Origin: a virus
DNA length: 22,457 nucleotides
Strand: one strand, 5' to 3'
IMG/VR virus record: IMGVR_UViG_3300009163_003429
Coordinates: 1 to 22,457 of that record
The translations under genes were made by a program, and so were the position numbers. Each line of letters opens with the position of its first letter. The stretch's first letter is position 1. The notes under the pieces are model-generated. The model was not told the DNA's origin and did not search any database. It saw nothing but the letters and a program-made list of their open reading frames with translations. Below, one piece after another: positions 8,115 through 20,761 of this stretch.

Positions 8115-8783
8115 GTGAGAAAATCCAGTACACCTGATATTGCTTTGCCGGGATTAAAAAACAAGAATTGGAAAGATATTGCAAGAATTATCGCGATAGA
8201 CGAAAGTCTGAATGATAGCGGAGCCGCACTATTTGTAGAAGGAAAATATCAATCATTTGTTGGCCCTCATGGACATGATATTGGGATTGCGCTCAAGTTA
8301 AGTGCCCATGCTGCTACCCCTGAGAAGGCGGTCAAATACAAGCAATGGGTGGATGCAATGATTGAGCAGCATCGTCCAGATGTACTTATTGCGGAAAGTC
8401 ATCCTTTTGCCCGTGGTAGTCGTACCACAAGCATCGCCACAATAGAGGTTTTGTCTGGAATACGATTTATCACCATGTTGGCGTGTGCCGAGCGAAAAAT
8501 TCCGTATCTTGAATTTTCTACAAACTCTGTAAAATTAATCATGTGCGGCGCTGTAAATGCATCAAAAGAAATGGTACAGTTGGTATTAAAGAATATCGGG
8601 TATGATTTGCCTAGATATGAGTTGAAGGAGCAAGAAATAAACGGGAACGTTTGTGACGCAATTGCATTAGGTGAAGTTATTTGCAGAATGCAGAAAGCAG
8701 AGATTGTGCGCCAAAAATATGTGCCTGTTGTGGGAGAGGGCAGATCGCAAACACAAAAAAGAAGGAAACAATCTAATGAGTAA
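8115..8783 (+). CDS. RuvC-like Holliday junction resolvase / RNase H-fold nuclease
   Basis: The 222-residue protein resembles RuvC and should cut branched DNA intermediates before packaging. Visible landmarks are IIAIDESLNDSGAALF (25-40), matching the first RuvC strand with catalytic Asp29; VLIAESHPFARG with Glu94; GAVNASKEMVQ, equivalent to the family's G-x-x-xADKxxV segment; and NVCDAIALG with Asp181. The order and spacing suit RuvC-family phage resolvases. The C-terminal 25 residues are basic and probably disordered. GTG 8115 is chosen with AGGAAG (8104-8109) just upstream. The next gene overlaps its end by 8 nt. The exact substrate (junctions or other branches) cannot be read from the sequence. 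Confidence 0.82.
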   Translation: MRKSSTPDIALPGLKNKNWKDIARIIAIDESLNDSGAALFVEGKYQSFVGPHGHDIGIALKLSAHAATPEKAVKYKQWVDAMIEQHRPDVLIAESHPFARGSRTTSIATIEVLSGIRFITMLACAERKIPYLEFSTNSVKLIMCGAVNASKEMVQLVLKNIGYDLPRYELKEQEINGNVCDAIALGEVICRMQKAEIVRQKYVPVVGEGRSQTQKRRKQSNE

Positions 8784-9568: not shown

Positions 9569-10032
9569 TGTCCAAAAGTCGCATTAGCGATGTAAACCCA
9601 GTTGGTGGGATGCCTGAGCATCCCACCATCAAGAATTTTCCTGTAATGTGGGCCGATATTGGGGACACGTGGCTTTTCAGGCGCGTCACAAATGCCTTGA
9701 TCCCCAAGGTGATTGATCAACCTAGCATTGATGATCCAATTGTTAGGTACGCAATCTGCGCCATCAAGCGGAGCAAGGCAAACGGCGACGGCATTGATTT
9801 TGTCATGTGGCAGGAAATCGAACAGATTCAGCCAGATCGAGAAACATCCATTGTAACGCCTGTCTTGTGCTTTGGGCCGTCCAAAATGATTGATAAGAAG
9901 CATTTGGACGCCACTGTTGATTTGACCATGAAGTCATTTCAAGAGGTTTATCATCATCCGCGATGGATTACCGTGTTTGGTGAAAATGCTCATCCTGTTC
10001 CTGTTCCTGAGGTTGAAGAACAAGATCAATGA
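9568..10032 (+). CDS. unknown protein, 154 aa
   Basis: ATG 9568 follows a strong AAGGAG (9557-9562) and overlaps the previous stop. The 154-residue product is soluble, with a mixed alpha/beta look and an acidic, Pro/Val-rich C-terminus (PVPVPEVEEQDQ). I see no nuclease, kinase or DNA-binding motif. The methyltransferase gene starts within its stop (ATGA), so the two are translationally coupled and may cooperate. Confidence 0.62.
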   Translation: MSKSRISDVNPVGGMPEHPTIKNFPVMWADIGDTWLFRRVTNALIPKVIDQPSIDDPIVRYAICAIKRSKANGDGIDFVMWQEIEQIQPDRETSIVTPVLCFGPSKMIDKKHLDATVDLTMKSFQEVYHHPRWITVFGENAHPVPVPEVEEQDQ

Positions 10033-10595
10033 AATTTTCCTTGGCGGTCATTGATCCTCCATGGCGATGGGAAGCATACAGCGAAAAGGGAAATGACAGA
10101 AGACCCCCATACGAAACTATGGGGGAACTTTTGCATGACATTGATATCAATTCTATTCTTGAAAAAGACGCGATTGTGTTTTTATGGGTCATTGATTCAA
10201 TGTTGCCAGAAGCCATGCGCTTGGTCAGCGAATGGAATTTGACGTTTCGGACGGTGGGGTTTTATTGGACCAAGCACCGCATTAGTGGCGCGGAACATAT
10301 GGGTACTGGGTATTACACCAGAGCCAATCCAGAACAATGCTGGATTTTGCGCAAAGGCAAGGGTATCAAGCGAGTATCTGCAAGTGTGCGTCGATGGCTG
10401 CATGCCCCAGTAGGGGCTCACAGTGCTAAGCCGCAAGAATTTTACGACCGTGTTGTTGCACTGTTTGGCGACGTGCCTCGATTGGATGTATTTGCCAGAG
10501 ACACAAGACCGGGATGGACTTGTGTTGGGAATGAGATTGATGGCCTTGATATTGTCGAGGCATTGAACAGGCTGAAGGAAATTGAAGATGTCTAA
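10029..10595 (+). CDS. MT-A70-family adenine N6-methyltransferase
   Basis: The 188-residue protein should transfer a methyl group from S-adenosylmethionine to adenine N6 in DNA. The catalytic motif DPPW is at residues 9-12 (LAVIDPPWRW), followed by the family's FLWVIDSMLPEA, a TVGFYWTKHR strand, GTGYYTRANPEQCWILRKGKG (near 95-115, shared with IME4-like phage enzymes), a segment around SAKPQEFYDRVVALFGDVP, and LDVFARDTRPGWTCVGNE, which fits the C-terminal part of the SAM pocket. Length is normal for the short phage form. It is coupled to the gene before (ATGA) and overlaps the gene after by 8 nt. It probably protects phage DNA from host restriction or marks newly made DNA; the target site is unknown. 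Confidence 0.92.
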   Translation: MKFSLAVIDPPWRWEAYSEKGNDRRPPYETMGELLHDIDINSILEKDAIVFLWVIDSMLPEAMRLVSEWNLTFRTVGFYWTKHRISGAEHMGTGYYTRANPEQCWILRKGKGIKRVSASVRRWLHAPVGAHSAKPQEFYDRVVALFGDVPRLDVFARDTRPGWTCVGNEIDGLDIVEALNRLKEIEDV

Positions 10596-11409: not shown

Positions 11410-12476
11410 TGAGCAAACCTGAAATACTTCCAGATAATCCTCTTGAAAATATTGCACAATTAGTCAGAAAACAATTTCGCGAGCAATCAATGCGCGATAT
11501 AGCGGCCACTGCGTCGAAGGGAAAGAGAAAAATCCCTTTGGAGGCGGAAATTCCAGATCGCCCCACAATTGATCGCATGCAGCAACGTCGCCGTGCGGCA
11601 GACATGACTGCACCTGTCCCGGTTGACGATAATGATCCATCTACATGGAACAATGAGGACCGTGACACCAATAACGCGGAACCTTTGGCAAATGCATCGA
11701 TCTATGACGACATCGATGACATGACGCCGGGTGAAACGCCCATGTCGCCGGAAGAAGCTGCATTGCAGTTGGCACTTGCAGTTCGGAAGGGACATGAAAA
11801 GGGAAAACCAGATATCGATTGGTATCTGGTCAAATTATTATATGTCTATGGAGGATGGACTTATGAGCGTATTGCTAAAGAATGTAATGTTTCTTTTACG
11901 CTTGTCAGGCTCAACGGACGCAAAGGACGTTGGCCGGAATCAAGAGAATCTTATCGAGAGGAACAGGCGCAAAAAATTCAAGAGAGACTTGCGCTTGAGG
12001 AAGATCGGTTACGCGATTGGCAAATTCTTAAGAGGCGTCAAGCTGGGATTGACGGCCTTAACTGGTTCACCAAAGCGATAGCCAATTTACGAGACGATGC
12101 CAGTCCAGAGTCAATTGCAAAATTGGGTGGATTGATGGACAGGATGCTGTCATCAGTCACCGGGCTGGCCCCCGTGGAAGGCGCTCCGGGTGGTGTGAAC
12201 GTATCAGTTCAAAACAATAACGTCTCCTTGAGCGCATTTCCCGCCAACTCACCACAGGCCAAGTTGGCAGCGGTCTGGGATCGCAAGGTTGGAGAGACGG
12301 ATTCCGAGCATACACGACGCCTTTCGCTGACAATCAGGGATTTGTACTATGAGTGTGAACGAGCGGGACTGTATGAAAATTTGAAATTGGATTCGGAAAG
12401 TCAGCGTCAGTTGAAACTTCGTAATCGTCTAGGACTCAAAGAGTCCGACATTCCTATTGTTGTGACGAGTCAATAA
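11409..12476 (+). CDS. terminase small subunit (putative)
   Basis: The 355-residue protein probably recognises the packaging site and loads the large terminase. Residues 139-175 form a helix-turn-helix of the type seen in small terminases: WYLVKLLYVYGGWTYERIAK, then ECNVSFTLVRLNGRKGRW, i.e. an IA-x-x-x-x-V core followed by a basic RKGRW end. The N-terminal 110 residues are charged, Asp/Pro-rich and probably flexible. A coiled coil with many Glu/Arg follows the helix-turn-helix (about 177-205), suiting oligomerisation. It is longer than most small terminases. ATG 11409 is preferred to TTG 11394, which would begin upstream of the TATAAT box. Its stop overlaps the ATG of the large terminase. Assignment rests on the helix-turn-helix plus gene order. 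Confidence 0.75.
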   Translation: MSKPEILPDNPLENIAQLVRKQFREQSMRDIAATASKGKRKIPLEAEIPDRPTIDRMQQRRRAADMTAPVPVDDNDPSTWNNEDRDTNNAEPLANASIYDDIDDMTPGETPMSPEEAALQLALAVRKGHEKGKPDIDWYLVKLLYVYGGWTYERIAKECNVSFTLVRLNGRKGRWPESRESYREEQAQKIQERLALEEDRLRDWQILKRRQAGIDGLNWFTKAIANLRDDASPESIAKLGGLMDRMLSSVTGLAPVEGAPGGVNVSVQNNNVSLSAFPANSPQAKLAAVWDRKVGETDSEHTRRLSLTIRDLYYECERAGLYENLKLDSESQRQLKLRNRLGLKESDIPIVVTSQ

Positions 12477-14167
12477 TGGTTGCTGTAAAGAATGAACCGG
12501 CTTCTTCAGTCGTAGGCTCCATTCCGGCACCAGTTGCCATACAGGATGGACTACGAAAATTCAGAATTTCCAGAACTATTGATGATCCGTTTGAATTTGG
12601 TCGTATTTATTTCCCAAAATATTGGTTTCAGAAATCTCCTGATTTTCATCAGGAAATAATGGACCTTGCTACGCACAAGGACGAGAAAGAATGGGAAGGC
12701 AAGAATCAACTGAACACACTTGTTCTTGCCGCGCCAAGAAATCATAGCAAGTCAACATTAATTACGTTTTTATATGTCATTTGGTCTCTTGTCACTCAAC
12801 GCAAGTTTTTTACGGTAATTATTTCTGATATTTCAAGAATTTCTGTCGGTCACACGAGAAACATTAAAGAAGAATTTGAATCAAATGAGAGGTTGTGCAA
12901 TGATTGGGGCATTATTCTTGGTCGTGATTGGGAGTCTCTTGTGGGTGCGGCGAAGGGGGAAAAGGAAAAGTGGACAGACGAAGAGTTTGTAATTGGGTTC
13001 AAGAAGTGGGATTTGCAAAATAATTGTTGGAGCAATGAACTTGAAGATAGGGCAAAAGTACTGGCACGTATGGCTAATAATCCTTTGCGGGGGTTACGGT
13101 TTGGATTTCGTCGTCCTGATCTGGTTATTGCTGACGACTTGGAAAATGACGAATTAGTTGACACGTCAGTACAGAGGGAAAAATTGGCGCTATGGTGGGA
13201 TAGCGCCGTCGAGCCTATGATTGAGCCTCCACCAGTCGGTCAAATCATTCTTGTAGGAACTGTCCTGCATTATGGTTCATTGTTAAATAAAATGCTCAAT
13301 AGAACTGATTTATATGTTACAAGAAGATATCAAGCAATAATTTCGCGAGATAATGAATACGGGGTGAAAACACAAACGCCATTATGGCCAGAGCGTTTTT
13401 CCTTGGAAAGATTATCGCAATTAAAAGCAAAAAATGTGCTTGCTTTTCAAAAAGAATACATGAATGATCCACGAGATGACACAAACCGGACGTTTCGAAG
13501 TGGATGGATTCAATGGTATGATGCGCATGATCTTGGCTATAAACCGCAAACAAATAAATGGTATTTTAGGGGTAAACTTCTGACCTTTTACACAGGCGTT
13601 GACTGGTCTGTTGGAAAAGATGATCAGGCAGATTTCTTTTGTATTCTCATGATAGGTCGCACAAGCGATAACGACATTATTGTTTTTGATATGGCAAATG
13701 AAAGATTAGATGTTGCAAATCAAGTAAATAGAGTAATTCAACAAAATAAGTCATACGCTATACAAATGAATGGAATTGAAGGAAATGGATTTCAACATAT
13801 TCTTATAAAACAAATATTACAAAGAGCATTAATTCCAATACGAGAAATTCATCATGTATCAAGAAAGAAAAAACAAATACGCATTGAAGGCATGGCTCCA
13901 TTATTTGAACAAGGCAAAATATATCTGCGAAGATGCACTGAATCGGAAATCAATCGAGATGAATTGACAAAAGACCCTAATGTTGAAAAGGGTTTCAATT
14001 ATGACGAGACGAGAATGGCTGTCGTATATCCCGAATTTTGGCCACTGTACGAACAACTGATGACCTACCCTCGATCTCAATTTGATGATATCCTCGATGC
14101 AATGGAAATGGCCATTGAGACATCTCGTTCTGGAAGAAGATTATTTGACGAAATTCTTGTGATCTAG
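12476..14167 (+). CDS. terL: terminase large subunit (packaging ATPase and nuclease)
   Basis: The 563-residue protein pumps DNA into the prohead and cuts it. The N-terminal ATPase has the phage-type Walker A APRNHSKST (86-94) and Walker B LVIADDLEND (216-225, with the acidic pair at 220-221). The C-terminal RNase H-like nuclease shows Asp376 in YTGVDWSVGKDDQADFF, Glu435 in GIEGNGFQ and Asp537/Asp541 in the FDDILDAMEMAIE segment, the expected three acidic positions. Length is normal. Start ATG 12476 overlaps the small terminase stop (TAATG). The gene is visibly richer in A/T (AAA, ATA, TTA codons, especially 13250-14000) than the ATPase and primase genes, which suggests it may have a separate history. 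Confidence 0.95.
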   Translation: MVAVKNEPASSVVGSIPAPVAIQDGLRKFRISRTIDDPFEFGRIYFPKYWFQKSPDFHQEIMDLATHKDEKEWEGKNQLNTLVLAAPRNHSKSTLITFLYVIWSLVTQRKFFTVIISDISRISVGHTRNIKEEFESNERLCNDWGIILGRDWESLVGAAKGEKEKWTDEEFVIGFKKWDLQNNCWSNELEDRAKVLARMANNPLRGLRFGFRRPDLVIADDLENDELVDTSVQREKLALWWDSAVEPMIEPPPVGQIILVGTVLHYGSLLNKMLNRTDLYVTRRYQAIISRDNEYGVKTQTPLWPERFSLERLSQLKAKNVLAFQKEYMNDPRDDTNRTFRSGWIQWYDAHDLGYKPQTNKWYFRGKLLTFYTGVDWSVGKDDQADFFCILMIGRTSDNDIIVFDMANERLDVANQVNRVIQQNKSYAIQMNGIEGNGFQHILIKQILQRALIPIREIHHVSRKKKQIRIEGMAPLFEQGKIYLRRCTESEINRDELTKDPNVEKGFNYDETRMAVVYPEFWPLYEQLMTYPRSQFDDILDAMEMAIETSRSGRRLFDEILVI

Positions 14168-14196: not shown

Positions 14197-16326
14197 ATGT
14201 TAGTAGATATGTATGGCAATGCAATAAGTCCTAGCACAAAAGAATTGTCTCCTAAGGAATTCATGAGCAAATCCAATATGGAGAAACAGGGCGAGGAAGA
14301 GGCACGCCGCCGTGGACAATGGTTCAGCAACTATGGACCAACAGTTACAAATATTGGCTCGATTTCAGGAACACTGAAAAAGCCTCTTGATACGCCCCCA
14401 TTCATGATGTTGCGACAGGTCGCAAAGGAAAGCCTCATCGACAGGGCAATCATTTCTCGTCGAGTTGAAGACATCAAGGGGTTGTCTCGCAAGGTGATTG
14501 TGCCCGGTAAACAACGGGGTTGGCGAGTAGTTCACAAGCGATTTGACGATCCCAATTTTGATTCGAATGACGATCATATTCAGCGTAGATGTCGTCAAAT
14601 GGAAGAGATGATTTCCAAGCCAATGGCTGTATACCATAAGACATTTAGGGATTTCTTGGCAGTTGCCGTTCAAGAAGAATTGATCTTGGATCGCAGGGCA
14701 ATGGTCATCAGTCGAGACAACAGAGGCAGGCCAAAGGACTACTACCTGCTTCCGGGCGACACTATCTTCCCCATCCTTTATGTGCTTATGCCTTGGATGG
14801 CAAAGAAGGGGATTACCAACGAGCGCATTGCACGCATGATTTTGTCTGAGGAGTATTCCTCAAAGGCTGGAGTTCCCATTGACATCACTGAAGCCACTTA
14901 TGTGCAAGAGGTCGATGGGCAGGTTGTGGGCGCATGGAAACAAGGCGAGATTGATGTGGAATGGACTAATCCATCAGGAGAATTAAATCGTTGGGGATTT
15001 GGATCAAGCGTGCTGGAGCAGTCGCTTCAAGCAACGTCACTTTTGCTCAATATGTTTAATTTTAACAAAGACATGTTCCGTCCGGGGTTTCCATCAAGAA
15101 TGCTCATTTTATCCGGCGACTATTCGGCTGAAGGTCTCAGTACATTTGAGCGGCAAATTCTTGGGCAAGGTGGGCCAACTACTCAAAAATCAAAAATGCC
15201 AATTTTGCCGGGACCGGAAAACATGCGTGCCCAAGTTCTCGATCTTACAGCAACACCGAATGACATGCAGTTTGAGCAATTTTTCAGGCTAATGTCCGCG
15301 CTAAAATGCTCATTCTTCGGGATGCATCCTTCACGCCTCAATTTGGGTGATAGAGGGCCGGAAGGTTTTGTGATGGGATCGGGTAGCGCCACTCAAGAAG
15401 TTGCAGAGACTGTCAATGAAGAAGGTTTGTACTCCATACTGGAGAGCAATGCCGATTGGCTTACTCGAACACTGATCGAGCCATACTTTAACGACTTGGT
15501 GTTGATTTTTGACGGACTGCATGAAGAAAGTGAGGCTGCAGTTTTGCAGAGCTTGCAAATCGAGTCCATGTGGTCTACAAAAAATGAAATTCGCGCTCGA
15601 CGCAACTTGCCAAAATTGTCCGATGAGGAAGGTGGCGATGTCATCATGGATGGCATCTGGTTGCAGTGGGTCAATCTCAAGAAGCAAGAGAAACAGCAAG
15701 AAGATGCTCAGAAAATGTATGAGCAGGGAAATTTTGGACAACAAGGCGGTCAACCGGGTGGCGATCCACAAGCAGCCATGGCAGCCATGATGCAAGGCGG
15801 TGGTCAGGGTGGGCCTCCCGGTGCTGGTGGGCCTCCCGGTGCTGGTGGGCCTCCCGGTGCTGGTGGGCCTCCGGGTGCAGGTGGCGACGATCAGCAGGCA
15901 GCAATGGCAGCCATGATGCAACAGGCTGGCGCACAAGGTGGGCCTCCCGGTGCTGGTGGGCCTCCGGGTGCAGGTGGGCCTCCGGGTGCAGGTGGGCCTC
16001 CGGGTGCAGGTGGCGACGATCAACAAGCGGCAATGGCGGCAATGATGCAGCAGGCTGCTGCACAAGGTGGACCTCCCGGTGCAGGTGGATCACCACAAGG
16101 AAAAGGGCAGCCAAGTCCGGAAGACATGCAGCAAATCATGGCCATGTTGGCACAACAGCAGCAAGGTCAGCAAGGACAGCAACAGGGAAATCCTCAGCAG
16201 AGCGTATCCCCGCTTGATGACGCACAGCAGCAACCTGAACAAGATGATCAATCTCAATCAGGATCAACGCCTCAATCAATTCAAGAGGCACTGGCAATGA
16301 TTGGACGATCCAAGCGTCGGCAATAA
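14197..16326 (+). CDS. portal protein with collagen-like, Gln-rich C-terminal tail
   Basis: The 709-residue protein forms the ring through which DNA enters the head. Residues 40-490 fit the portal fold: a helical entry part, YYLLPGDTIFPILY (near 187-200), and the clip/stem-like region ending in ATQEVAETVNEEG and LTRTLIEPYFNDLVLIFDG (about 400-440). Residues 515-640 are low-complexity: Gly-X-Y triplets of the form GPPGAG alternate with DDQQAAMAAMMQQ segments, and a Gln-rich end follows (up to about 695). Most portals lack such a tail. It would hang from the ring as a flexible or collagen-like extension. RBS AGAGG (near 14187) precedes ATG 14197. It follows the large terminase by 29 nt. Confidence 0.88.
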   Translation: MLVDMYGNAISPSTKELSPKEFMSKSNMEKQGEEEARRRGQWFSNYGPTVTNIGSISGTLKKPLDTPPFMMLRQVAKESLIDRAIISRRVEDIKGLSRKVIVPGKQRGWRVVHKRFDDPNFDSNDDHIQRRCRQMEEMISKPMAVYHKTFRDFLAVAVQEELILDRRAMVISRDNRGRPKDYYLLPGDTIFPILYVLMPWMAKKGITNERIARMILSEEYSSKAGVPIDITEATYVQEVDGQVVGAWKQGEIDVEWTNPSGELNRWGFGSSVLEQSLQATSLLLNMFNFNKDMFRPGFPSRMLILSGDYSAEGLSTFERQILGQGGPTTQKSKMPILPGPENMRAQVLDLTATPNDMQFEQFFRLMSALKCSFFGMHPSRLNLGDRGPEGFVMGSGSATQEVAETVNEEGLYSILESNADWLTRTLIEPYFNDLVLIFDGLHEESEAAVLQSLQIESMWSTKNEIRARRNLPKLSDEEGGDVIMDGIWLQWVNLKKQEKQQEDAQKMYEQGNFGQQGGQPGGDPQAAMAAMMQGGGQGGPPGAGGPPGAGGPPGAGGPPGAGGDDQQAAMAAMMQQAGAQGGPPGAGGPPGAGGPPGAGGPPGAGGDDQQAAMAAMMQQAAAQGGPPGAGGSPQGKGQPSPEDMQQIMAMLAQQQQGQQGQQQGNPQQSVSPLDDAQQQPEQDDQSQSGSTPQSIQEALAMIGRSKRRQ
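15757..16083 (+). repeat. tandem repeats in the portal gene (18-bp and 129-bp units)
   Basis: Eighteen-bp units of the type GGTGGGCCTCCCGGTGCT occur four times at 15808-15879, four times at 15937-16008 and once at 16066-16083. Each four-unit run is followed by a segment coding GGDDQQAAMAAMMQQAxAQ, making two 129-bp blocks (15808-15936 and 15937-16065). A degenerate copy of the second half precedes them (15757-15807). Units differ mainly by silent CCC/CCG and GCT/GCA changes. Confidence 0.9.
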
Positions 16327-16335
16327 AAGAGAACA

Positions 16336-16458
16336 ATGAACAAAAAGAAAACAAACGAAGAATACTGGATGCAAAGAGCAATACTTGCAGAGCAACGGGT
16401 GAGAGAACTGCAAGAAGAACTAAAAAGTTTGCTGTCAGTTTATAAAAAAATGGATTAA
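16336..16458 (+). CDS. 40-aa coiled-coil ORF after the portal
   Basis: ATG 16336 lies nine bases after the portal stop, with a weak AAGAGA (16327-16332) upstream. The 40-residue product is a charged single helix (NEEYWMQRAILAEQRVRELQ). The N-terminal pattern EEYW-x-x-R with following Glu-rich helix resembles the beginning of phage minor head (SPP1 gp7-like) proteins, which usually sit right behind the portal gene. Here the frame ends after 40 codons, so it is either a truncated remnant or an independent micro-protein. Strand switches 19 nt later. Confidence 0.5.
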   Translation: MNKKKTNEEYWMQRAILAEQRVRELQEELKSLLSVYKKMD

Positions 16459-17132: not shown

Positions 17133-17303
17133 CTATTTAGGCCTTACGATCATCCATTTTTGTCCCCTAATAGGGCAGTCGCTACATCTGTAAGTCTCTC
17201 CAGTGGTATCGCACCGTTTGCAACGAAAACGGTGCTTCCACTGCACTCGCTTGTCTCTTTCTGAATCAAGACCATAAACATATTCCCTGAATTTGTTTTT
17301 CAT
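17133..17303 (-). CDS. small zinc-finger protein, 56 aa
   Basis: ATG at 17303-17301 overlaps the DnaE stop (ATGA), so it is translated with the polymerase. The 56-residue product is basic, with CKRC (28-31) and CSDC (40-43), a compact four-Cys zinc site, and a WKHRFR segment before it. It could be a small DNA-binding or polymerase-associated protein. It is too short for standard ORF listing, but the coupling, the cysteine pattern and the in-frame TAG at 17133-17135 support it. It is unrelated by eye to the plus-strand zinc ribbon at 10926. Confidence 0.68.
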   Translation of the reverse strand: MKNKFREYVYGLDSERDKRVQWKHRFRCKRCDTTGETYRCSDCPIRGQKWMIVRPK

Positions 17304-20300
17304 GCAAGAATGTCCAGTATCCCAGAAGCAACGTCCTCGGAAATGCCGTCAATCTTCATGCTGGCAACACCATGCGGTGTCCTACAAACGATAGTAGCAG
17401 ATTCTTCGCTGAAAAAATCCTTTTGTTCGTACAGCGACCAGATACGAACAATGCGCTCTGATGGCTTCAATGGCCTCATGTCCCACATCAATGAAGTGAC
17501 CTCATCTGGCTTCCGAAACACTTCGGGATTGACAGACGGATCCAGTATGAGCATCTCATCGGCGGCGACCGATACACGAGCGTTGTACTCATTGACCTTC
17601 CCATAGAACAGCACAAATTGCTCTCGTGTCAAAGACGAAGAGATTTTTTCATATAGGGATGGGAATATGCTGACATTAATCTCGCCTGTGTAATCCTGTA
17701 TCGTCACAAAAGCCATGGCTTGCCCCTTCTTGGTCATGTGTTGCGACACCTTGACGATCATGCCTCCAACGATGCATTCCTCGTCTATGCCTCCGGGCAA
17801 TGAAGCCGCAGTAAAGTTGCAAAAGAAATCCAAATTTGCGCGAACAGAATCAAGTGGGTGCCCCGATATGTACATGCCCACGGCTTCCATTTCCTTTTCG
17901 AGCCGCTCTGACTGCGAAAACTCAGGGATATTGGCCAATTCATACTTGGCCTGTAATCCGGAAAATTCATCCAAAAAGTGCGACTGCAATCCTTGTCGTG
18001 CCTTGGCATTTTTGCGAAATGTATCTAGATGATCCTCAAGAAATTTTTGCAGTTGCGCACGATTTCCCCATTCATCCATGGCTCCGGCCGAGATCATCAT
18101 GGACAGCGCACGTTGATTGATATCAGACAGGGAAAGCGATGTCAACATATGTCCCATCGAAGTAAACGAACCAACCCGATCACGACAGGCGACCAACGAA
18201 GCGCAAGCATTGATGCCAACAGACTGCAGAGCAGCCAATCCAAAACTGATACCCTCCTGCCCGTCTATTGACACAATAGAAAACATGCCCTTTGACACGT
18301 TAATCGAAGGAGGATGGACAGTTACTCCCATGCGTCTGCACTCCACAACTGCTTCCGCAATCTTTGGCTTGTTCCCAACTTCATGAACGAGTACGGCTGT
18401 CATATACTCAATTGGATAATTTGATTTCAAATATGCAGTAATAAATGCAACATATCCATAGCACATCGCGTGCGCTTTATTGAACCCGTAGCCAGCAAAC
18501 GGCGCAATAGTGTCCCAAATTTCTACAACTACTTCTTCATCGTACCCCTTTGCAATACTTTTTGATACAAATTTTTGTCTTTGTTCATCGATAACCGATT
18601 GTAATTTTTTGCCCATTCCTTTTCGCAATGAGTCTACTTCTCCCCATGTAAACCCAGCAATATTTTTGGCAATCAACAATACTTGATCTTGATAAGTAAC
18701 AACCCCATATGTTTCTTCTAAAAACGGTTTAAGATCAGGATGAAGATATGACATCTCGGCGTTTCCGTGTTTTGCTTCCGCATACACAGGAATATTGGCT
18801 AGTGGGCCCGGTCGATACAACGCAACAACAGCGGCAACATCTCCTACCTTTGTAGGACGCACCATGCGGAGAACGCCTCGCATGCCCTCGGACTCACACT
18901 GAAATACCGCAGTAGTATTGCCCTGAGACAGTAGGGTATATGCATTCTTTGCTTGCGGATGATCGTAGTCAATCGGCAAATCAGAGTAAAGTTTCTCTCC
19001 ACTTTCTCCATAAAGATCAATATTGTGACGCTCTTTTATAAGCGCACACGCATCCTTGATGATCGTAAGATTTGCAAGACCAAGAAAGTCAAATTTTGAC
19101 AATCCAAGACTTTCAATGATCGCCGATGAATTATTGTTGTCATATTGCGTAACCAGTGTCTGTCCGGTATACGTATTGCTTCCCGGCGGCAATTGAACAG
19201 GAACTACATCATCAAGTGCCGTAGCCGCAATCAACATTCCTGCAGCGTGTGTACCAAAGCCACGATTTAATCCCTCCAATTGCATGGCAAGATTAAATAC
19301 CTCATCAAGCACTGGATTGTCGGCAATAGCCTGAACAATTTTTGGCTCATTACGTATTTGAGAAAGCGACAAGTCAATGCGATCAGGAAACAAAGATGTG
19401 AAATAATTTGATGTCGCAAAATTGACATCGAGAACGCGAGCGACATCCTTTATTGCATTTCTTGCGCCAAGGGTCTGAAATGTGCCAATGTGTGCTACAC
19501 GGTCCTTGCCATACTTTTCTGTAACGTACTTGATGACATCATCGCGTCGATTATCGGCAAAATCCATGTCAATATCAGGCATGCCCTTGCGTTCTTCATG
19601 CAAGAACCGCTCAAAAATGATGTCATACTTTATGGGATCAATATCGCAAATTCCCAGCGCATAGATGCACAGAGAACCAGCGACCGACCCTCTTGGAACA
19701 GCCATGACACCTTTTTCGCGAGCGTATCGAACATAATCTTGAACAATAAGGAAATATAGTGCATACCCTGTTTTTTCAATAATGGATAATTCATATTCAA
19801 CCCGTGACGCATGTGCCTCCGATATGGTTTTGTATCTCCATTCGAGGCCACTGTATACCTGTTTCCTGAGCCACTCGATTGGAGTAAACCCATCCGGTAT
19901 CTGGAACTGGGGCAACATGACCTTGGAAAAATCCAATGTCAAGTTGCATTGTTCTGCTACCCATAAGGTGTTGCGAACAGCATCTTCCCTGCCAGAAAAA
20001 TCTCGGAGCATCTCTTGCTCAGACCGCAGGTAATACGCTCCTTGCGGACTGATCTTGAACCGCTTTGGGTCGTCTCTGGTTGATCCTGTTTGAATTGCCA
20101 GCATGACATCATGCGACTCTGCGTCTTCAGGTCGCGCATAATGACTATCACAAGCCGCAACAACCCTGATGCCGAATTCATCAGCCAAGCTCATCAGTGA
20201 GGGATTCAGCAATGCTTGTTTTTCGTGCCCGTGATTGTGAACCTCAATCGCATATCGATCACCAAATGTGTCGCGATACACTCGGATCAATCGCCGTGCC

Positions 20301-20761
20301 TCAGCCATGTCTCCCTGAAGCACAGCGTCCGATAGTGACCCGGACATACATCCAGATAGCACAAAAACACCTTCGCTGTGTCCAGCGAGACAATCAAAAT
20401 CAATACGAGGCCTGTAGTAATATCCCTCAATATGAGCCTTTGTGGTCAATTTCAAGAGGTTGCGATAGCCGGTTTCATTCATGGCCAGCAGGGTCAAATG
20501 GCTACTACTTCCCATTCGATCTAGCGTGAAATCTTTGCGCTTCATCGAGGCTTTCGCCATGTACGCCTCTAGGCCCACAATCGGCTTGATATCTGCGCTC
20601 CTGCACGCACGATAGAATTCAATCGCACCATGCATGACGCCGTGATCTGTGAGCGCCACTGCTCGCTGGCCGCATTCCTTCACTCGACTGACAATCTCAT
20701 CTATTCGAGACCGTCCATCGAGGATGGAGTAATGGCTGTGGTTGTGTAATTGCACAACCAT
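17300..20761 (-). CDS. dnaE: DNA polymerase III alpha subunit (C-family replicative polymerase)
   Basis: The 1153-residue protein is a full-length DnaE-type polymerase (E. coli alpha is 1160). The PHP domain (1-280) keeps a full set of likely metal ligands: His6, His8, Asp15, His40, Glu65, His88, Cys138, Asp205 and His207. The polymerase domain has RGSVAGSL (357-364), catalytic Asp398 and Asp400 in PDIDMDF, Asp558 in FDFLGL, and the finger motif GYGFNKAHA (758-766). A helix-hairpin-helix region lies near 820-895, QSHFLD (926-931) resembles a clamp-binding motif, and an OB fold spans about 995-1075. There is no intein. It starts at ATG 20761, two bases after the nuclease stop, with GAGG nearby. 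It probably copies the phage genome; no separate epsilon exonuclease is visible, so PHP may proofread. Confidence 0.95.
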   Translation of the reverse strand: MVVQLHNHSHYSILDGRSRIDEIVSRVKECGQRAVALTDHGVMHGAIEFYRACRSADIKPIVGLEAYMAKASMKRKDFTLDRMGSSSHLTLLAMNETGYRNLLKLTTKAHIEGYYYRPRIDFDCLAGHSEGVFVLSGCMSGSLSDAVLQGDMAEARRLIRVYRDTFGDRYAIEVHNHGHEKQALLNPSLMSLADEFGIRVVAACDSHYARPEDAESHDVMLAIQTGSTRDDPKRFKISPQGAYYLRSEQEMLRDFSGREDAVRNTLWVAEQCNLTLDFSKVMLPQFQIPDGFTPIEWLRKQVYSGLEWRYKTISEAHASRVEYELSIIEKTGYALYFLIVQDYVRYAREKGVMAVPRGSVAGSLCIYALGICDIDPIKYDIIFERFLHEERKGMPDIDMDFADNRRDDVIKYVTEKYGKDRVAHIGTFQTLGARNAIKDVARVLDVNFATSNYFTSLFPDRIDLSLSQIRNEPKIVQAIADNPVLDEVFNLAMQLEGLNRGFGTHAAGMLIAATALDDVVPVQLPPGSNTYTGQTLVTQYDNNNSSAIIESLGLSKFDFLGLANLTIIKDACALIKERHNIDLYGESGEKLYSDLPIDYDHPQAKNAYTLLSQGNTTAVFQCESEGMRGVLRMVRPTKVGDVAAVVALYRPGPLANIPVYAEAKHGNAEMSYLHPDLKPFLEETYGVVTYQDQVLLIAKNIAGFTWGEVDSLRKGMGKKLQSVIDEQRQKFVSKSIAKGYDEEVVVEIWDTIAPFAGYGFNKAHAMCYGYVAFITAYLKSNYPIEYMTAVLVHEVGNKPKIAEAVVECRRMGVTVHPPSINVSKGMFSIVSIDGQEGISFGLAALQSVGINACASLVACRDRVGSFTSMGHMLTSLSLSDINQRALSMMISAGAMDEWGNRAQLQKFLEDHLDTFRKNAKARQGLQSHFLDEFSGLQAKYELANIPEFSQSERLEKEMEAVGMYISGHPLDSVRANLDFFCNFTAASLPGGIDEECIVGGMIVKVSQHMTKKGQAMAFVTIQDYTGEINVSIFPSLYEKISSSLTREQFVLFYGKVNEYNARVSVAADEMLILDPSVNPEVFRKPDEVTSLMWDMRPLKPSERIVRIWSLYEQKDFFSEESATIVCRTPHGVASMKIDGISEDVASGILDILA

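Follow-up and report, generated by a model that had tools for sequence, protein, structure and literature searches.

A possible flexible tether with helical hooks at the C-terminus of a phage portal protein with Gly-X-Y repeats

Introduction

What does a tandem array of Gly-X-Y triplets do at the C-terminus of a phage portal protein? The question arises from a 22,457-base virus fragment of an uncultured tailed phage (the whole stretch analyzed here, referred to as the window), in which a sequence-only reading had noticed a portal gene ending in collagen-like repeats, and had suggested that these might trimerize or bind scaffolding. Structures frequently leave the C-termini of portals unresolved, and these regions have been little studied. 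Here, we ask whether the repeats are real and how old they are, where the tail they belong to would sit, and what it might do.

Results and discussion

The portal gene and its surroundings

The gene in question (Table 1) encodes a tailed-phage portal of the phage 812/SPO1 type, which bears out its initial identification. Its product matched the profiles of PHROG 11117 (E 1.3e-13) and PHROG 12 (E 2.4e-12) and, in profile comparison, the phage 812 portal (8Q7D, E 4.7e-70), its sole convincing solved relative by sequence, while the Pfam profile PF04860 scored 23.8 bits, under its cut-off of 39.1. Foldseek searches with the AlphaFold2 model returned phage 812 portals as best matches (E about 1e-18), then other portals, and the matching folds included the phage 812, HFTV1, HK97, T5, and lambda portals, at modest TM-scores and with a model pTM of 0.50. 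The TerL gene (12476-14167, PHROG) lies directly upstream. A scan of genome contigs for relatives found none.

Directly after the portal gene, an ORF at 16336-16458 (+) encodes 40 residues beginning MNKKKTNEEYWMQRAILAEQRVRELQEEL; it is identical in L001, a separate metagenome record described below, its product had no Pfam match, and its start looks similar to that of MuF-type head proteins. A phage-encoded DNA polymerase III alpha subunit gene (17300-20761, -) is convergent with the portal gene, an arrangement seen again in L002-L006. The window also carries genes for an MT-A70-type methyltransferase (10029-10595, +), a RuvC-like nuclease (8115-8783, +), and an SLT transglycosylase (217-846, +).

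Table 1. Features of the portal gene in the window, with the evidence on which each rests
Feature	Position	Strand	Evidence
Portal protein gene, 709 aa	14197..16326	+	PHROG portal families, PF04860 below cut-off, 8Q7D profile, portal fold
M-S-K-S, residues 23-26, possible head-protease site	14263..14274	+	Consensus inferred from enrichment in scaffolds/proteases
Low-complexity C-terminal tail, residues 514-709, predicted mostly disordered	15736..16323	+	Composition, AlphaFold2
Helix unit of the repeat, diverged first copy (DPQAAMAAMMQ)	15757..15795	+	Repeat search, L001 comparison
129-bp block 1: QG(GPPGAG)4 GDDQQAAMAAMMQQAGA	15805..15933	+	Repeat search, block comparison
129-bp block 2: QG(GPPGAG)4 GDDQQAAMAAMMQQAAA	15934..16062	+	Repeat search, block comparison
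Inner hook SPEDMQQIMAMLAQ, residues 640-653, predicted helix 641-655	16114..16155	+	Distant-group matrix, AlphaFold2
C-terminal hook TPQSIQEALAMIGR, residues 691-704, predicted helix 692-708	16267..16308	+	Distant-group matrix, AlphaFold2

An in-frame repeat array older than it appeared

The Gly-X-Y array was confirmed where it had been described, in frame at the portal C-terminus. The tail runs through four GPPGAG units, DDQQAAMAAMMQQ, four further GPPGAG units, a second DDQQAAMAAMMQQ, and a last GPPGAG, with a diverged QAAMAAMMQ unit preceding the two blocks, and Tandem Repeats Finder reported a 129-bp array at 15762-16088 (2.6 copies, 87% matches) plus two 18-bp arrays. Both blocks lie in the portal frame and are 90% identical, less than the near-identity first described, and their differences are mostly silent: 13 bases differ, in 12 codons, of which 11 are silent and one is replaced (Gly to Ala). 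This pattern, equivalent to a pN/pS between blocks of 0.011/0.340 = 0.03, with the caveat that exchange between repeat units could blur the rates, was not matched for scarcity of replacements in any of 5000 random placements of 13 changes, and shows that the repeat frame is coding and that the blocks are under constraint on their amino acids. A minus-strand ORF (15331-16065) overlaps the repeat, with the block changes mostly at third positions of the plus frame. The 13 differences also make it unlikely that the second block in the window is a simple duplication introduced by assembly.

Comparison across relatives, proposed at the outset as a check on repeat number, revealed a difference in copy number between two records that are otherwise nearly the same. 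L001 is 99.75% identical to the window over 4774 bases, and its first 510 portal codons differ by three silent and no replacement changes, but its tail is shorter by 31 codons. One in-frame deletion of 93 bp, together with five point differences, converts the portal gene of the window into that of L001, which lacks one of the two blocks and holds a hybrid unit. A change of this size equals a block less two GPPGAG units, which is what unequal exchange between the two GPPGAG arrays would produce. Most simply, L001 lost a block by contraction, and its single block could also be a short-read collapse. The suggestion of a recent expansion had to be abandoned: the blocks differ by 10% against 0.25% between the strains, a roughly 40-fold greater divergence, and the duplication therefore most likely predates the split between the window and L001.

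Placement and predicted structure of the tail

Residue 506 of the window portal is aligned to residue 496 in the portal of phage 812, whose crown (residues 437-507) lies inside the capsid (PMC12886913), so that by homology the tail would start just past the crown tip and face the interior of the head, supporting the location at the head vertex or inside the head that had been anticipated. The termini of the 812 crown resemble molten globules, and 41% of their residues are charged (PMC12886913); the phage K portal extends past residue 507 by 56 residues that are likewise 41% charged, and on this evidence that segment very probably corresponds to the 812 termini. The portal of Staphylococcus phage 812 and phage K (8Q7D, 8QEM, 8QJE; Herelleviridae), the best sequence and fold match of the window, shares with it a low-complexity C-terminal segment after the crown, but the segment of 812/K is free of repeats, whereas that of the window spans 196 residues, is 9% charged with a net charge of -8, and is built from block repeats. 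A C-terminal extension beyond the crown is also found in the P22 portal (gp1), where it is unstructured in the procapsid (PMC12005531) and described as a helical barrel in the virion (PMC4992974). Unlike that barrel, the tail of the window is glycine- and proline-rich and cannot be one continuous helix. To our knowledge, only one solved structure has this crown type, and it shows no resolved partner for the termini.

Structure prediction, which the sequence-only reading had put forward as a check, returned a disordered tail with short helices. The deeper AlphaFold2 model, a monomer based on 49 sequences that superseded a shallow first model (pLDDT 45.6), left most of residues 511-691 disordered and predicted the two helices listed in Table 1, along with two weaker helices within the 129-bp blocks. 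The inner helix was the strongest of the tail (mean pLDDT 81 for residues 641-650), and the terminal one was of low confidence.

Both helices carry peptides with counterparts in other portals. A distant portal group, about 25% identical, ends in KKEQIQEILNSLPPE-like peptides, and a matrix built solely from this group, with seed peptides chosen by eye, ranked SPEDMQQIMAMLAQ and TPQSIQEALAMIGR highest among non-overlapping sites in the tail of the window. With this matrix, L002/L003 and L033 showed SPEQIQQILASLGQ and TPSQIREILSKIGR at their C-ends, L004 and L006 scored weakly, and no hook was detected in the tails of L008 and L021; strong sequences within the clade of the window were few. Elsewhere in three related genomes, no protein other than portals exceeded 18 bits, and one weaker match (17.5 bits) lay close to the C-terminus of a G004 protein of 803 aa. 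Among the papers searched, none described a portal tail that is collagen-like or that carries such hooks.

Tails of related portals

Had related portals ended near residue 500, the extension might have been a misread frame; full-length close relatives instead carry tails of 58-196 residues. Their make-up varies, and in relatives at 69-77% portal identity the same place is filled by PPQGA, GAPPPG, QQAAMMQQ, or QPPDAGG spacers. Among 69 non-redundant related portals, the window alone has a Gly-X-Y run of at least 6 triplets, with a longest run of 10; L001 and L166, close relatives removed from that set as redundant, reach 13 and 9, and long GPPGAG arrays are thus a feature of a few relatives.

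Several portal clades have their own terminal peptide, and the last 45 portal residues of L092-L161 show clade-specific C-terminal peptides (for example F(T/G)KS...LEISLDD.DDW, LFGKS.T.DDFIDFMRSR, QISQSIDQQY, and KFLTIEIED) on low-complexity spacers, many of them with a [LIVMFY]-x-K-S site. Positional conservation was computed per identity band, because pooling all pairs mixed the clades and diluted the signal. Across the family, at a core identity of 66-85%, conservation was clearly higher over the final 20-30 residues (mean z 3.4-4.3) than in the spacer (about 0.8-2.0), a test that was weak inside the small clade of the window itself.

A tether with hooks, and its rivals

We propose, at what we consider even chances, that the tail is a disordered, flexible tether inside the capsid, its location and disorder being drawn from homology and modelling, that bears helical hooks for a procapsid partner. 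Spacers rich in glycine, proline, and glutamine would separate short helix-forming peptides, chiefly SPEDMQQIMAMLAQ and the C-terminal TPQSIQEALAMIGR, and in the lineage of the window these spacers take a Gly-X-Y register. With a dodecamer, as in relatives, probably twelve tails would reach from the crown into the procapsid, where the helices would hook a partner during assembly, most likely scaffold or core, through many weak contacts on flexible lines; the make-up and length of the spacers would be free to drift, since they would matter less. The first candidate partner is scaffold, because in P22 it binds the portal and is proposed to form the nucleation complex together with it (PMC12005531). 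Scaffold binding, which had been suggested for the repeats, is possible, and more plausible via the short helices than via the Gly-X-Y spacers; such a partner and such a role in assembly we only infer.

A collagen-like arrangement, in which the GPPGAG runs of three neighboring subunits would form triple helices and give four stalks per dodecamer, appears very improbable to us. It could appeal to the constraint on the GPPGAG amino acids and to the Gly-X-Y runs of the window, L001, and L166: the longest run of the window is short and interrupted but exceeds the maximum of 9 triplets in 1000 shuffles of its tail, and that of L001 also lies beyond shuffles. Every second triplet in the window is GAG, placing Gly in the Y position, where it is expected to destabilize a collagen triple helix. 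The collagen profile PF01391 matched neither the protein at 1e-3 nor, with E values of up to 10 allowed, the tail, no trimerization domain family was found next to the Gly-X-Y runs of the window in Pfam, the spacers of most relatives lack the register, and AlphaFold2 left the tail disordered, in a monomer model that cannot test trimers. Known phage collagen proteins set a collagen domain of ~111 residues beside trimeric coiled-coil and C-terminal trimerization domains (PMC3368898). EPclPs (collagen-like tail-fiber proteins; PF01391) and the tail of the window share Gly-X-Y triplets with Pro, but EPclPs have a long collagen domain flanked by trimerization domains, whereas the window has short runs on a portal and no such domains. 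We therefore reject a collagen domain; the trimer first envisaged is not supported, and the resemblance is probably a coincidence of composition.

A near-neutral low-complexity extension, tolerated and resized by unequal exchange with no task beyond solubility, is a more serious rival, though still an unlikely one. The wide turnover of tail make-up and length among relatives, the single-event length change between the window and L001, and the tail of L008 with no hook at all would be expected of it; the amino acids kept between the blocks, the similar terminal peptides in distant groups, and the clade-wise conservation of C-ends argue against neutrality. A nearly neutral spacer under modest constraint is conceivable. 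Anchoring of the genome, with the tails holding the first-packaged DNA end, has been proposed for the 812 crown termini (PMC12886913), at the position from which the tail of the window also departs, but that proposal rests on the high charge of the 812 segment, and the low, net negative charge of the tail makes DNA anchoring improbable here. Least credible of all is an element acting as DNA inside the portal gene, such as a packaging recognition site: tandem DNA repeats near terminase genes would suit one, yet the blocks keep their amino acids while 34% of silent sites differ, the reverse of what constraint on the DNA would leave, and most relatives have other repeats or none.

Processing of the portal

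The tether-and-hook proposal may also touch on head maturation. In phages of the 812/SPO1 type, the motif [LIVMF]-x-K-[SAG] is abundant in most scaffolds and head proteases (11 sites in the SPO1 scaffold versus 1.3 in shuffles), with one Listeria phage scaffold that is not rich in it as an exception, and on this enrichment it is likely a head-protease site; a literature search on known cleavage sites in these phages gave nothing usable. The portal of the window carries this motif only once, at residue 23, and its tail is free of it. We predict that the tail is retained in the virion, whereas the N-terminal 25 residues may be removed. Six of seven sampled portals from its clade have the site at the N-terminus. 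Across the 69 portals, by comparison, [LIVMFY]-x-K-S occurs within the last 45 residues in 23 versus 5.1 expected. In G001, a relative of the window, an SPO1-like protease gene lies about 78 kb away from the portal gene and is followed by those of an acidic putative scaffold and a probable major capsid protein; a probable scaffold in G001 (L075:13983-15500, -) has very long Asp/Glu runs and many [LIVMF]-x-K-[SAG] sites. We tentatively suggest, with more doubt than conviction, that portals of this broad group share a fast-changing crown spacer and a clade-specific conserved terminal hook, in many clades bearing a head-protease-like site, by which scaffold would be held and then cut loose at maturation, and that the clade of the window would be a variant with an N-terminal site and an uncut long tail.

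Conclusion

In a tail rich in glycine and proline, a Gly-X-Y run is not necessarily a sign of collagen. If the hooks proposed here are real, they would offer a handle on how the portal is incorporated at a single vertex and on the partner protein that it meets there.
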